Positions 397 to 30,024 of a DNA stretch of 64,000 nt are shown piece after piece (within the stretch, counting starts at the first letter, position 1; the number at the start of each line of letters is the position of its first letter). The position numbers were made by a program, and so were the translations under genes. The stretch is from Gilliamella sp. Pra-s52 (lineage in GTDB: Bacteria > Pseudomonadota > Gammaproteobacteria > Enterobacterales > Orbaceae). The notes below the pieces were generated by a model, which had not been told where the DNA came from, did not search any database, and saw nothing but the letters and a program-made list of their open reading frames with translations. The stretch is taken from the NCBI RefSeq assembly GCF_009795805.1, contig NZ_WTEY01000010.1, positions 1-64,000 on the forward strand, in the 5' to 3' direction.

Positions 397-425
397 TTGA
401 CAATAATTTTATCGGGTTGTATAGT
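397..425 (+). promoter_or_regulatory. Strong sigma70-like promoter of antisense unit A
   Basis: TTGACA at 397-402 and TATAGT at 420-425 are separated by exactly 17 bp, which is close to consensus. The predicted start is near 432, immediately before the predicted antisense target at 433-445. The promoter begins 2 bp after the ssb stop codon. Confidence 0.7.
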
Positions 426-432
426 TGTAATC

Positions 433-445
433 ACTACAACATACG
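433..445 (+). promoter_or_regulatory. Predicted antisense target of c4-like RNA A
   Basis: The segment has two parts, ACTAC (433-437) and CATACG (440-445). They are exact complements of GTAGT (574-578) and of the hairpin loop CGTATG (566-571) in c4-like RNA A. The two-part pairing is arranged as in unit B, but with different bases. Confidence 0.5.
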
Positions 446-452
446 CGGACTT

Positions 453-479
453 CCGCACCCGAAAGCTAGCGGTTTTTTT
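453..479 (+). terminator. Possible attenuator hairpin between target A and RNA A
   Basis: CCGC (453-456) can pair with GCGG (469-472), followed by seven T. The same CCGC can instead pair with GCGG at 445-448, which abuts the antisense target. The two folds exclude each other, so this may be a switch. The stem is only 4 bp with a long loop, so confidence is low. Confidence 0.3.
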
Positions 480-510
480 ATGCCTATTTTTAGGTATTTG
501 ATCATGTCTA

Positions 511-591
511 TGATCGGGTCGAGAGGACGTAATACAATACTCGAAAGAGGAATAAGTCCCGCCGTCGTATGCGGTAGTTGAAGCCCGATCA
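511..591 (+). ncRNA. c4-type antisense RNA, copy A
   Basis: An 81-nt element closed by a perfect 8-bp stem (TGATCGGG 511-518 with CCCGATCA 584-591). Inside are AATACAATAC (531-540) and GGAATAAGTCC (549-559), both shared exactly with copy B, and a CCG/CGG hairpin (562-574) with a 7-nt loop. Size, core sequences and position before an AntA/AntB gene match the C4 antisense RNA of phages P1/P7 and relatives, which is about 77 nt and blocks antirepressor synthesis. Its antisense loop differs from that of copy B and fits a target at 433-445. Family assignment rests on remembered consensus and context; no covariance model was run. Confidence 0.7.
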
Positions 592-642
592 CCTACTAAA
601 TCTTTTTCATAATTACTATCTTTATTAATATCTTTTAAAATA

Positions 643-672
643 TTGACTTCAAATATCATATTGCGATATATT
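643..672 (+). promoter_or_regulatory. Promoter of antisense unit B and the antirepressor gene
   Basis: TTGACT (643-648) and TATATT (667-672) are 18 bp apart, with a predicted start near 679, just before the first target of RNA B. A 9-bp inverted repeat (663-671 with 705-713) overlaps the -10 box and could be a repressor site. Confidence 0.5.
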
Positions 673-713
673 GACCCTTGAGGTGTAGAAACCTTTACAA
701 GCGGATATATCGC
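663..713. repeat. 9-bp inverted repeat around RNA B target 1
   Basis: GCGATATAT (663-671) is the exact reverse complement of ATATATCGC (705-713). The arms overlap the -10 element and lie on both sides of the antisense target at 686-701. It may be a repressor operator pair or an RNA stem that hides the target; the sequence alone does not decide. Confidence 0.4.
686..701 (+). promoter_or_regulatory. First predicted target of c4-like RNA B
   Basis: TAGAAA (686-691) and TACAAG-like TTTACAAG (694-701) repeat the sequence that precedes the antirepressor start. They are complementary to TTTCTA (815-820) and CTTGTA (805-810) in RNA B; 13 of 16 positions pair overall. In P1 the c4 RNA likewise has a target before and one after its own sequence. 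Confidence 0.5.
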
Positions 714-753
714 CCCGTTAGTGTGATTTTTTTGTACCTAAATTTCGTTCTAT

Positions 754-831
754 GATCGAGAGGGCGACGAATACAATACCATAAATGGGAATAAGTCCAG
801 CCGACTTGTACGGTTTTCTAACCTCTTGATC
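754..831 (+). ncRNA. c4-type antisense RNA, copy B
   Basis: A 78-nt element closed by a 10-bp stem (754-763 with 822-831, one G-U pair). It shares AATACAATAC (770-779) and GGAATAAGTCC (788-798) with copy A. A CCG/CGG hairpin (801-813) exposes the loop ACTTGTA, and TTTCTA follows at 815-820. These two segments are complementary to TACAAG and TAGAAA at 862-867 and 851-856, the first of which overlaps the Shine-Dalgarno of the antirepressor gene. This is how C4 of phage P1 acts. The prediction is that RNA B, processed from the leader, shuts down translation of the downstream gene. Confidence 0.75.
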
Positions 832-850
832 GCCCTATTTGGGCTTAGTG

Positions 851-870
851 TAGAAACTAAATACAAGGTG
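851..870 (+). promoter_or_regulatory. RNA B target overlapping the antirepressor Shine-Dalgarno
   Basis: TAGAAA (851-856) and TACAAG (862-867) are complementary to RNA B. The second overlaps the ribosome-binding site AAGGTG (865-870), which lies 7 bp before the ATG at 878. Binding of RNA B would cover the Shine-Dalgarno directly. Confidence 0.6.
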
Positions 871-877
871 CAACATC

Positions 878-1630
878 ATGCAAAATCAAATTATCCCTAT
901 CTTTAACAGTGTTATAAACCAAGAAGAAGTAAAATCCGTCAATGCTAAACTTTTACATTCCTTTTTAGAGGTTGATACAAGATTCAATGATTGGATCATT
1001 CGTCGTATAAATGATTATCAATTTATTGAAAATATTGATTTTGTTTTGGTTACTCAAAAAAGAGTAATCAAAAATAGAGGTGGGGATCGTCGTTCAAAAG
1101 ACTATCATATTACTTTAGATATGGCGAAAGAATTAGCCATGATTGAGAGAACTGAAAAAGGAAGGCAAGCAAGAAAATATTTCATTGAATGTGAAAAACG
1201 ATTAATGCAAATATTACATCCAACAACAATTAACACCGAACAGCAACAAGCAATCAAACAAGCGGTAAATGAACGTTCATTTAGAACAGGTGAGCATTAT
1301 CAAGCCATCTACACTAAACTTTATGAACAATTCAAAATCCCACGTTATCAGGATTTACTTGCTAGTAAGTTCGACGAAGCTATTAAGTGGTTGGGTGGGG
1401 TTACAAAAACAAGAAAAGATATGATTGAGGTAAACAGAACCAATTTGATTTGTTTAGTTCATCACATGATTTGGTTGAACGATTTCTACATAGATAATCG
1501 TTTATATGATGTTTTTAAAATGCTGGGGTCTAATTTCGGTGTAAGACTTCACGATCATTTTGGCGACGGTGCTTTTGTTGCTTCAATGTTTAAACAACAG
1601 CTAGAAAAGAAACAATTACAGAAACTATAA
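878..1630 (+). CDS. ant: AntA/AntB-family phage antirepressor
   Basis: A 250-aa protein whose N-terminal ~100 residues match the AntA/AntB antirepressor domain: NAKLLHSFLEV, NDWIIRRI, then DYHITLDMAKELAM and GRQARKYFIECEK, in family order. Antirepressors inactivate the phage repressor and trigger lytic genes. The C-terminal half (from about residue 115) contains LICLVHHMIWLNDFYIDNRL and resembles no domain I can name with confidence. Start chosen at 878 because AAGGTG sits 7 bp upstream. Two c4-like RNAs precede it, so synthesis is probably controlled by antisense RNA. A terminator follows at 1634. Confidence 0.88.
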   Translation: MQNQIIPIFNSVINQEEVKSVNAKLLHSFLEVDTRFNDWIIRRINDYQFIENIDFVLVTQKRVIKNRGGDRRSKDYHITLDMAKELAMIERTEKGRQARKYFIECEKRLMQILHPTTINTEQQQAIKQAVNERSFRTGEHYQAIYTKLYEQFKIPRYQDLLASKFDEAIKWLGGVTKTRKDMIEVNRTNLICLVHHMIWLNDFYIDNRLYDVFKMLGSNFGVRLHDHFGDGAFVASMFKQQLEKKQLQKL

Positions 1631-2362: not shown

Positions 2363-3548
2363 TCCATTTATCTATCATATCCGCCCAATCTTGTAATAGT
2401 TTTCGCCTTTGCTCTGAGTATTCAGCTTTATTGTAAACAGCTCTAACGCCTCGTTGCTCATGAGCTAAAGCCTTTTCTATCCAGTCAGAATTGTATCCAG
2501 CTTCATGTAGGTGAGTTGATGCGGTTCTTCTCATGTCATGTACAGTAAAATCACCGAGATTAAAACCGTTCTTTTGAGCCAATTGAATAGTATGCGTGCA
2601 AGCTCTGTTTAGTGATGATTTTGATATATTCCCGTACTTTGATTGCCCAAAGCTTGGTAAAACAAATGGTGATTCGCTTGATAATATCTTTAACTGCATA
2701 AACAAATCGATTGCTTGTTTAGATAAATAAACAACATGAGGTCTACCTGCCCCCTGTCTGCTCGCTTTCATGCGTTCGGCAGGGATTGTCCATTCCGCAT
2801 TTTTAAAATCTATTTCATCCCACGTTGCATCAACTATTCCACTTTTTCTTGTCATTGTTAGCATAATTAGCTTTAGTGCGATCTTTAATTGAAGAGACGT
2901 TTTGCTAATTTTCAATGTGTTAAAAAATATACCCACTTCTTGCTTTGTTAACGCTCTATCCCTTGGTGTGAAAGTCGCTATTGAAGATCCTTTTACATAA
3001 TCAGCAGGATTATCATAATTAGCCCCCCTCGCCTTCGCGTATGTAAAGACCATGCCAACAATATCTCGTGTTCTTACCGCCGTTACAGGTGCGCGTTCTT
3101 TAATTTTCTCACAATATTGCCTCAACATTGTTGGAGTTATTTCTGACAATAACAATTTACCGAATTTTGGAGCAACATCTCTTGCGATTATTCCTTGCAC
3201 TACATCTCTGGTACTAATTGCATAATCAACATCATTAAACCATTTATCCAACCAATACCCAAAAACATCATTATTTTTTGTTTGCTTTTCACGTTGCTTT
3301 TCCTTTGCGGGTGAAAGCCCATTTGCAATTAATTTCTTTGCTTCAAGTAGCTTATCTCTTGCTTCAGATAGTGATAATTCACCATGTTTACCAAAAGTGA
3401 TTGTTTCTCGTCGCCCGTTAATGCGGTAATCATAACGAAAAGACAACGTACCTGCTTTAGATACGGCAACATACAACCCATCTCGATCTGGAATTTTATA
3501 TTGTTTGTCTTTTGGCTTTATTGATTTAAGCTTAGTTTCTGTTAACAT
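2343..3548 (-). CDS. int: P4-type tyrosine integrase
   Basis: A 401-aa tyrosine recombinase. Residues 1-~90 are the DUF4102 arm-binding domain (DGLYVAVSKAG, ITFGKHGELSLSEAR). A SAM-like core-binding domain follows, then the catalytic domain with R234 (TMTRKSG), H337-x-x-R340 (VHDMRR), H363 (LAHEQ) and Y372 (VYNKAEY), so the active site is complete. It would integrate and excise the element whose other genes lie to its left. The 5' end faces the 3' end of guaA, a site used by P4-type integrases. TACCGTCA repeats occupy its upstream region and could be arm-type sites. Confidence 0.93.
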   Translation of the reverse strand: MLTETKLKSIKPKDKQYKIPDRDGLYVAVSKAGTLSFRYDYRINGRRETITFGKHGELSLSEARDKLLEAKKLIANGLSPAKEKQREKQTKNNDVFGYWLDKWFNDVDYAISTRDVVQGIIARDVAPKFGKLLLSEITPTMLRQYCEKIKERAPVTAVRTRDIVGMVFTYAKARGANYDNPADYVKGSSIATFTPRDRALTKQEVGIFFNTLKISKTSLQLKIALKLIMLTMTRKSGIVDATWDEIDFKNAEWTIPAERMKASRQGAGRPHVVYLSKQAIDLFMQLKILSSESPFVLPSFGQSKYGNISKSSLNRACTHTIQLAQKNGFNLGDFTVHDMRRTASTHLHEAGYNSDWIEKALAHEQRGVRAVYNKAEYSEQRRKLLQDWADMIDKWTTEYTS

Positions 3549-29820: not shown

Positions 29821-29883
29821 ATGAATTGTTTTTGCGTTTTTATTACTAATGCTATTAGTACACATCATCACCGTCATTCCTGA
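29821..29883 (+). CDS. hisL: his operon leader peptide
   Basis: Twenty codons, MNCFCVFITNAISTHHHRHS, ending in TGA at 29881. Four of the last six residues are His (His-His-His-Arg-His). Ribosome stalling at these codons when histidyl-tRNA is scarce controls the attenuator that starts 4 bp downstream. AAAGG lies upstream. It is shorter in His content than E. coli HisL (seven His in a row), but position and structure leave little doubt. Confidence 0.93.
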   Translation: MNCFCVFITNAISTHHHRHS

Positions 29884-29886
29884 ATA

Positions 29887-29983
29887 GTCTTCGGGCGATT
29901 GGTGCTGGAAGACGTTGATCTTCCGGTGATATCGCAAAAGCAAGCAGAGAACCCTCGGAAGATCAAACTTCCGAGGGTTTTTT
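29887..29983 (+). terminator. his attenuator with alternative hairpins
   Basis: Pause hairpin: GTCTTC (29887-29892) with GAAGAC (29908-29913). Antiterminator: GATCTTCCG (29917-29925) with CGGAAGATC (29956-29964). Terminator: AACCCTCGGAAG (29950-29961) with CTTCCGAGGGTT (29968-29979), 12 bp, then T to 29983. The second and third overlap, so they exclude each other. hisG starts 42 bp later. Confidence 0.93.
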
Positions 29984-30024
29984 GTTTGTGGTTTATAAAT
30001 TTTTAGATAACTTTGGAGAAAGAT

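Follow-up and report, generated by a model that had tools for sequence, protein, structure and literature searches.

Tandem sRNA-Xcc1 RNAs as putative antisense silencers, one of them an apparent orphan, ahead of a Gilliamella antirepressor gene

An AntA antirepressor gene (ant, 878–1630) of Gilliamella sp. Pra-s52 is preceded by two tandem modules, each consisting of a promoter, a target site, a terminator and an RNA of about 87 nt of the sRNA-Xcc1 family. It is probable that both RNAs act as antisense silencers: the second module (unit B) would silence the phage switch next to it, and the first (unit A), an apparent orphan, would act in trans and widen superinfection immunity. The window analysed is the first 64,000 nt of contig NZ_WTEY01000010.1, and the parts of both modules and ant lie on its forward strand. 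The product of ant carries AntA/AntB and ORF6C domains (PF08346, E 8e-26; PF10552) and matches the PHROGs family anti-repressor Ant (E 1.7e-44).

Unit A opens with the promoter-like sequence TTGACA-17-TATAGT (397–425), which agrees with the consensus at 11 of 12 positions; transcription would start near 432. Site 1 follows at 433–448 and contains an arm word, ACTAC, and a loop word, CATACG (together 433–445), then CGG. It is complementary to the arm and loop of RNA A, and its loop word and CGG are kept at this place in relatives. Next comes an intrinsic-type terminator-like hairpin, CCGC...GCGG with seven T residues (453–479). In an alternative hairpin GCGG (445–448) pairs with CCGC (453–456), and the predicted fold switches once site 1 is blocked. 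RNA A occupies 511–598 (covariance-model match at 512–598), with the loop TCGTATG at 565–571. Unit B has the promoter TTGACT-18-TATATT (643–672, 10 of 12 consensus positions), a probable transcription start near 679, and a site 1 at 680–704 made of GAGGTGTAGAAACC, the loop word TACAAG and CGG, in which the target words TAGAAACC..TACAAG span 686–701. A terminator-like hairpin, ATCGC...GTGAT with a T run, lies at 709–733, and RNA B at 753–839 (match at 754–839), with the loop ACTTGTA at 804–810.

Unit B has a further element downstream of its RNA. The words GTGTAGAAAC and TACAAG, located at 683–692 and 696–701 in site 1, recur in the same order at 848–857 and 862–867. This site 2 (GTGTAGAAAC...TACAAGG, 848–868) is complementary to the loop and arm of RNA B only, and its TACAAGG (862–868) contains the ant Shine-Dalgarno sequence. 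The two RNAs share a block with 78% identity over 45 nt (531–575 and 770–814), and their second hairpins are CCG-TCGTATG-CGG (562–574) and CCG-ACTTGTA-CGG (801–813). A preliminary description of this DNA had given the places of both elements, the difference between their loops and a separate promoter before each target, and all of these were borne out on re-reading of the sequence. Its list of targets was correct for the two copies of site 1 and overlooked the second B site over the ant Shine-Dalgarno.

Relatives share one plan: −35 and −10 boxes, site 1 (arm word, loop word, CGG), a GC hairpin with a T run, the RNA, a linker and then site 2, whose loop word runs into the Shine-Dalgarno sequence a few bases 5' of the start codon. 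What relatives keep of the pairing is the loop of hairpin 2 together with its 5' CCG, and the arm that follows this hairpin. Judging from the sequences of relatives, this CCG could lengthen the duplex by joining the CGG that follows site 1, at the cost of one bulged nucleotide. A further pairing of GGAATAAGTCC, implied in the preliminary description, did not hold up in relatives: GGAATAAGTCC can pair with GGACTTCC in unit A, but this is not conserved in A-type relatives (L024, L036) and was treated as a coincidence.

An SSB-like protein gene is found upstream of the leader, and AlpA and an integrase beside a GuaA-like gene (GuaA recognized from its translation) further downstream, so that the two-unit leader is the edge of an integrated element. 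Between the antirepressor and the AlpA-like regulator, a small DUF3850/ASCH-domain protein is encoded at 1769–2065. Elsewhere in the window, a histidine operon leader (RF00514) was detected at 29862–29986.

Both units were retrieved with the sRNA-Xcc1 covariance model (RF02221) in a search of the whole window. Unit A scored 57.6 bits (E 1e-7) and unit B 62.2 bits (E 8.4e-9), both full-length (1–87) and above the gathering cut-off of 53 bits; with two such matches, chance does not account for the two units. Computed duplexes between each RNA and its own site 1 reached −21.1 kcal/mol for A and −24.8 kcal/mol for B, whereas crossed pairs gave −5.7 and −8.9 kcal/mol; in 1000 shuffles of the targets, neither cognate energy was attained. 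The pairs thus do not cross-react in prediction, as had been proposed. At the ant Shine-Dalgarno, the computed duplex with B is modest (−12.7 kcal/mol, a value that 9% of shuffles reach), and that with A (−9.7) is no better than with shuffled sequences. The case for Shine-Dalgarno pairing by B therefore rests more on the repeated words and on family-wide statistics than on its own energy.

These statistics come from a pattern-and-structure scan that returned 295 non-redundant units with both flanks, a sample and no census, as the pattern scan misses 10 of 55 covariance-model loci. We compared the 24-nt hairpin-2 stretch (loop plus the start of the arm, so that the figures cover both jointly) with the flanks of the same unit, and as a control exchanged units that have unlike stretches. 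Of the 295 units, 77% could form at least 7 paired nt with their own upstream site, compared with 11% of swapped units. For the initial 90 nt downstream the figures were 74% and 9.5%, about a quarter of units being without such a match there. When only windows before start codons were considered, 58% matched against 2% of swapped units. The match positions fall in two clusters, the loop and the arm. In a viral contig (L272), a tandem pair of near-identical units aligned over 229 columns shows 21 differences. Site 1 and hairpin 2 with its arm make up 42 of the columns and hold 15 of the differences, among them a matched arm change. The covariation, the duplex energies and this pair all agree with the earlier idea of a diverged, non-cross-reacting riboregulator of C4 type in which loop and target have changed together.

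The genes predicted to be silenced by sRNA-Xcc1 RNAs are mostly antirepressors and, in Xanthomonas, also SymE toxins. Pfam searches with 76 diverse proteins, each with a start site that fits the loop stretch, gave Bro-N (21), P22_AR_C (13), ORF6C (11), pRha (10), KilA-N (9), AntA (8), SymE_toxin (8), P22_AR_N (6) and ORF6N (3), in overlapping tallies to which one protein may contribute several times. Haemophilus phage Aaphi23 carries an sRNA-Xcc1 module before its annotated ant, and Escherichia phage vB_EcoP_phi296 an RF02221 module directly 5' of an annotated 'anti-repressor Ant'. SymE genes whose Shine-Dalgarno matches the adjacent loop (L468, L470, L471 and L473 on the Xanthomonadaceae side, and also L028) are candidates for an antisense-controlled toxin, in part on integron cassettes. 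Among the sampled species genomes, sRNA-Xcc1 was found in 74 of 247 on the Xanthomonadaceae side and 69 of 140 on the Pasteurellaceae side. Many Xanthomonas loci retain site 1 and have no Shine-Dalgarno match, so the family has further uses beyond the present explanation. Dispersed Xanthomonas-side units (L476, L478, L487, L493, L443, L444 and L454–L456) have a matching site 1 and terminator and no Shine-Dalgarno match; several of the small proteins encoded downstream of them resemble each other.

The module would work like the C4 RNA of phage P1 or the CI RNA of P4. From the promoter, transcription would pass through site 1 and the terminator into the RNA of about 87 nt, which would be processed and would hold two hairpins within a closing stem; complete modules continue with site 2 across the Shine-Dalgarno of the next gene. 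The hairpin-2 loop and the following arm would bind both sites: at site 1 the pairing would favour early termination and at site 2 it would block ribosomes, and the antirepressor would thereby be kept off in the lysogen. A terminator-like hairpin with a T run was present 3' of site 1 in 266 of 273 units. However, blocking site 1 raised the computed terminator pairing no more in these units than in shuffled controls, and the terminator of unit B is predicted to form whether site 1 is blocked or free. These computations lend a designed attenuator switch little support, and Shine-Dalgarno blocking is thus the better-supported arm of the mechanism. Unit B would be the cognate silencer of ant.

Unit A has no Shine-Dalgarno site at the local antirepressor, only site 1. 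With promoter, site 1, terminator and RNA intact and no Shine-Dalgarno target in cis, it is by its sequence an orphan. The preliminary description had read the leader as two immunity switches; for ant this is not supported, as unit B alone matches the ant Shine-Dalgarno. From 397, the first base of its −35 box and the exact point at which the homology begins, to 599, unit A shares 95% identity with a complete module (L019/L540) of G013, another species of the genus. There, an antirepressor-like product of 258 aa (L019) begins after the Shine-Dalgarno CATACGAGG, which fits the loop of A with a computed duplex of −15.1. The predicted target of A is therefore the antirepressor of another prophage type, and the suggested origin by recombination with another phage gains support from the same match. 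A pattern search of the host genome found no AACATACGNGG..ATG and hence no second Shine-Dalgarno target for A there. Matches in relatives other than G013 were rejected as A targets, as they precede genes unrecognizable as antirepressors or lie within coding sequence. Most likely, unit A was left from an earlier or recombined module and still yields an RNA, which would act in trans to silence an antirepressor belonging to a second immunity type. The specificity of C4 decides heteroimmunity in P1 and P7 (PMC12197685, PMC5320573), and on this basis orphan A may give immunity to a second phage type.

Compact arrays of two to five such RNAs recur, with units about 90–450 nt apart. Covariance-model support was obtained for the array of the window, for those of G018 (three units) and G017, for four from the Pasteurellaceae-side search (G953, G968, G1005 and G954) and for the viral contigs L260, L264, L272, L299, L304, L341 and L393; spurious-looking calls in the start-site scan (e.g. 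L277, L482) were left out of the array cases. Several arrays (G018, G953, G968 and G1005) sit on large single contigs, which argues against an assembly artefact. In most arrays, a match to the adjacent start site is confined to the last unit; in the exceptions L341 and L526 the last unit has no match, and in L304 the two later of three units each match a start. Orphans were picked by rule, requiring an intact own site 1 and, at most 450 nt away, a next unit matching its gene. The words of 8 of these 10 orphans, a set chosen partly for intact site 1, were found at the Shine-Dalgarno of another module in a pattern-based sample library (shuffled words, mean 3.4; p=0.003).

Some arrays are more complex. 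On the reverse strand of G1005 (L525, C1:1350000-1352800), two sRNA-Xcc1 units are followed by AaHKsRNA82 and C4, forming a mixed-family array. Its first antirepressor is truncated by the next module, which starts inside the reading frame, and a comparable truncation is seen in L548. Between the first two units of L525 is a fragment that resembles the 3' end of a further unit. In a Marinobacterium MAG (L202, reverse strand, about 2499–3170), five sRNA-Xcc1-like RNAs with five different loops stand in a row, four promoterless ones with a period of about 87–111 nt plus one complete unit. The four share 77–93% of the scaffold and 20–60% at loop positions, and the single RNAs score below the RF02221 cut-off. 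True C4 RNAs also occur in tandem, up to three of them and mostly with isrK (L098–L101 and L105, in G512, G682, G595 and G019), so sRNA-Xcc1 is not alone in forming arrays. CRISPR-DR4 repeats (L010, 32–299; L008, 2709–2736) lie no more than about 1.5 kb from the arrays of G017 and G018.

The recurrence of arrays with orphan units suggests that a phage may be equipped with RNA immunity to types of phage beyond its own, silencing rivals. We advance only tentatively the broader possibility that phages and hosts maintain arrays combining a constant scaffold with interchangeable loops of about 7 nt, each recording one antirepressor (immunity) type, and that orphans act in trans on incoming phages of these types as a heritable RNA immunity repertoire. 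The L202 array and the mixed L525 array are its clearest cases.

The alternative explanations differ in weight. The preliminary description had called both RNAs c4-type; that they are members of the known C4 family (RF01695) we consider highly improbable. The likeness to C4 is real in gene context, in a similar three-stem plan, in pairing by loop plus arm and in the proposed mechanism: both units lie upstream of an antirepressor gene, and in unit B, not in A in cis, two segments are complementary to the ribosome-binding-site target (848–857, 862–868). Moreover, true C4/isrK modules exist in the host genome and in related species. However, when 380–900 was searched with permissive settings, RF01695 gave no match up to E=1 for either unit, whereas RF02221 matched both at E<=1e-9, and in Rfam C4 belongs to clan CL00128 and RF02221 to none. 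C4 membership was therefore rejected. The host genome itself (G000: C44, C20, C26) contains four C4 loci, three of them with isrK, and four sRNA-Xcc1 units with four different loops. Processing of the 5' end by RNase P counts as a further mark of C4 antisense RNA. It is just as hard to believe that sRNA-Xcc1 RNAs are host or virulence regulators of chromosomal genes whose place before antirepressors is incidental. Published links to HrpG/HrpX control and to vesicle sRNAs point that way (PMC12444791, PMC12189769), but the loop covaries with the adjacent upstream and Shine-Dalgarno sites, also at Xanthomonas SymE genes.

A serious rival concerns unit A, which could be only a scar, a functionless antisense RNA that remained when a module of new specificity displaced the old antirepressor. 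We regard this as a real possibility, if not the expected one. Intermediates such as L525 and L548, where a later module starts inside a truncated antirepressor frame after an earlier unit, are what such displacement would leave, and in the arrays of G018 and G017 the leading unit no longer has its promoter/site 1. Against this, unit A retains promoter, site 1, terminator, fold and an exact loop-target match, several other orphans retain site 1 followed by CGG, and the contrast between scaffold and loop identity in the L202 orphans is unlike simple decay. It is unlikely that both units feed one antirepressor, with promoter A reading through into ant and A serving as a second attenuator-controlled input. 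The units have the same orientation with no intervening gene, and readthrough could in principle overcome both terminators, but A does not pair with the ant Shine-Dalgarno above the shuffled level, and a readthrough transcript from promoter A would still include site 2 of B. Cognate silencing by B with trans-silencing by orphan A remains the reading that we prefer.

This reading offers a testable mechanism for a widespread Rfam family, in which the next gene is silenced through pairing with its Shine-Dalgarno, a role that is likely rather than settled. In the literature that we found, sRNA-Xcc1 appears as a virulence or integron RNA whose action is unknown. In Xanthomonas, it is described as encoded on an integron and controlled by HrpG/HrpX, its mechanism on targets not being known (PMC2996969, PMC12444791), and a 2025 integron paper placed it upstream of symE, leaving the mechanism open (PMC12444791). 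Expression as an RNA of about 88 nt is a mark of the family, on which there are published data from other organisms (PMC2996969, PMC5331693). RNA-seq of EHEC EDL933 found it abundant and untranslated (40,293 reads, coverage value 0.02; PMC5331693), and in Xylella Temecula1 all seven copies were transcribed (PMC12189769). If the present reading is correct, loop-target words would let heteroimmunity groups be predicted from sequence.

Among known systems, Xanthomonas sRNA-Xcc1 (RF02221) is alike in that its cassettes before symE-like genes show the same match between loop, site 1 and Shine-Dalgarno. By description, Xylella fastidiosa sXF1-5, five tandem sRNA-Xcc1 homologues about 381 bp apart, resemble the arrays described here, although they were read as vesicle-borne virulence RNAs (PMC12189769). 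P4 CI RNA, with its seqA and seqC targets upstream and downstream, acts on early termination (PMC4825925) and by description is likewise an antisense RNA with one target on each side; however, P4 controls replication genes and not an antirepressor, whereas here the downstream site covers the Shine-Dalgarno. An a1b1 element upstream of C4 (c4-a1b1/isrK) has been listed beside it (PMC2864571). C4 of P1 and P7 (RF01695) is also a small structured RNA 5' of an antirepressor, whose loop and neighbouring segment pair with a ribosome-binding-site target. The present modules differ from it in belonging to the RF02221 covariance family, in having SymE toxins among their targets and in forming compact arrays with orphan units.
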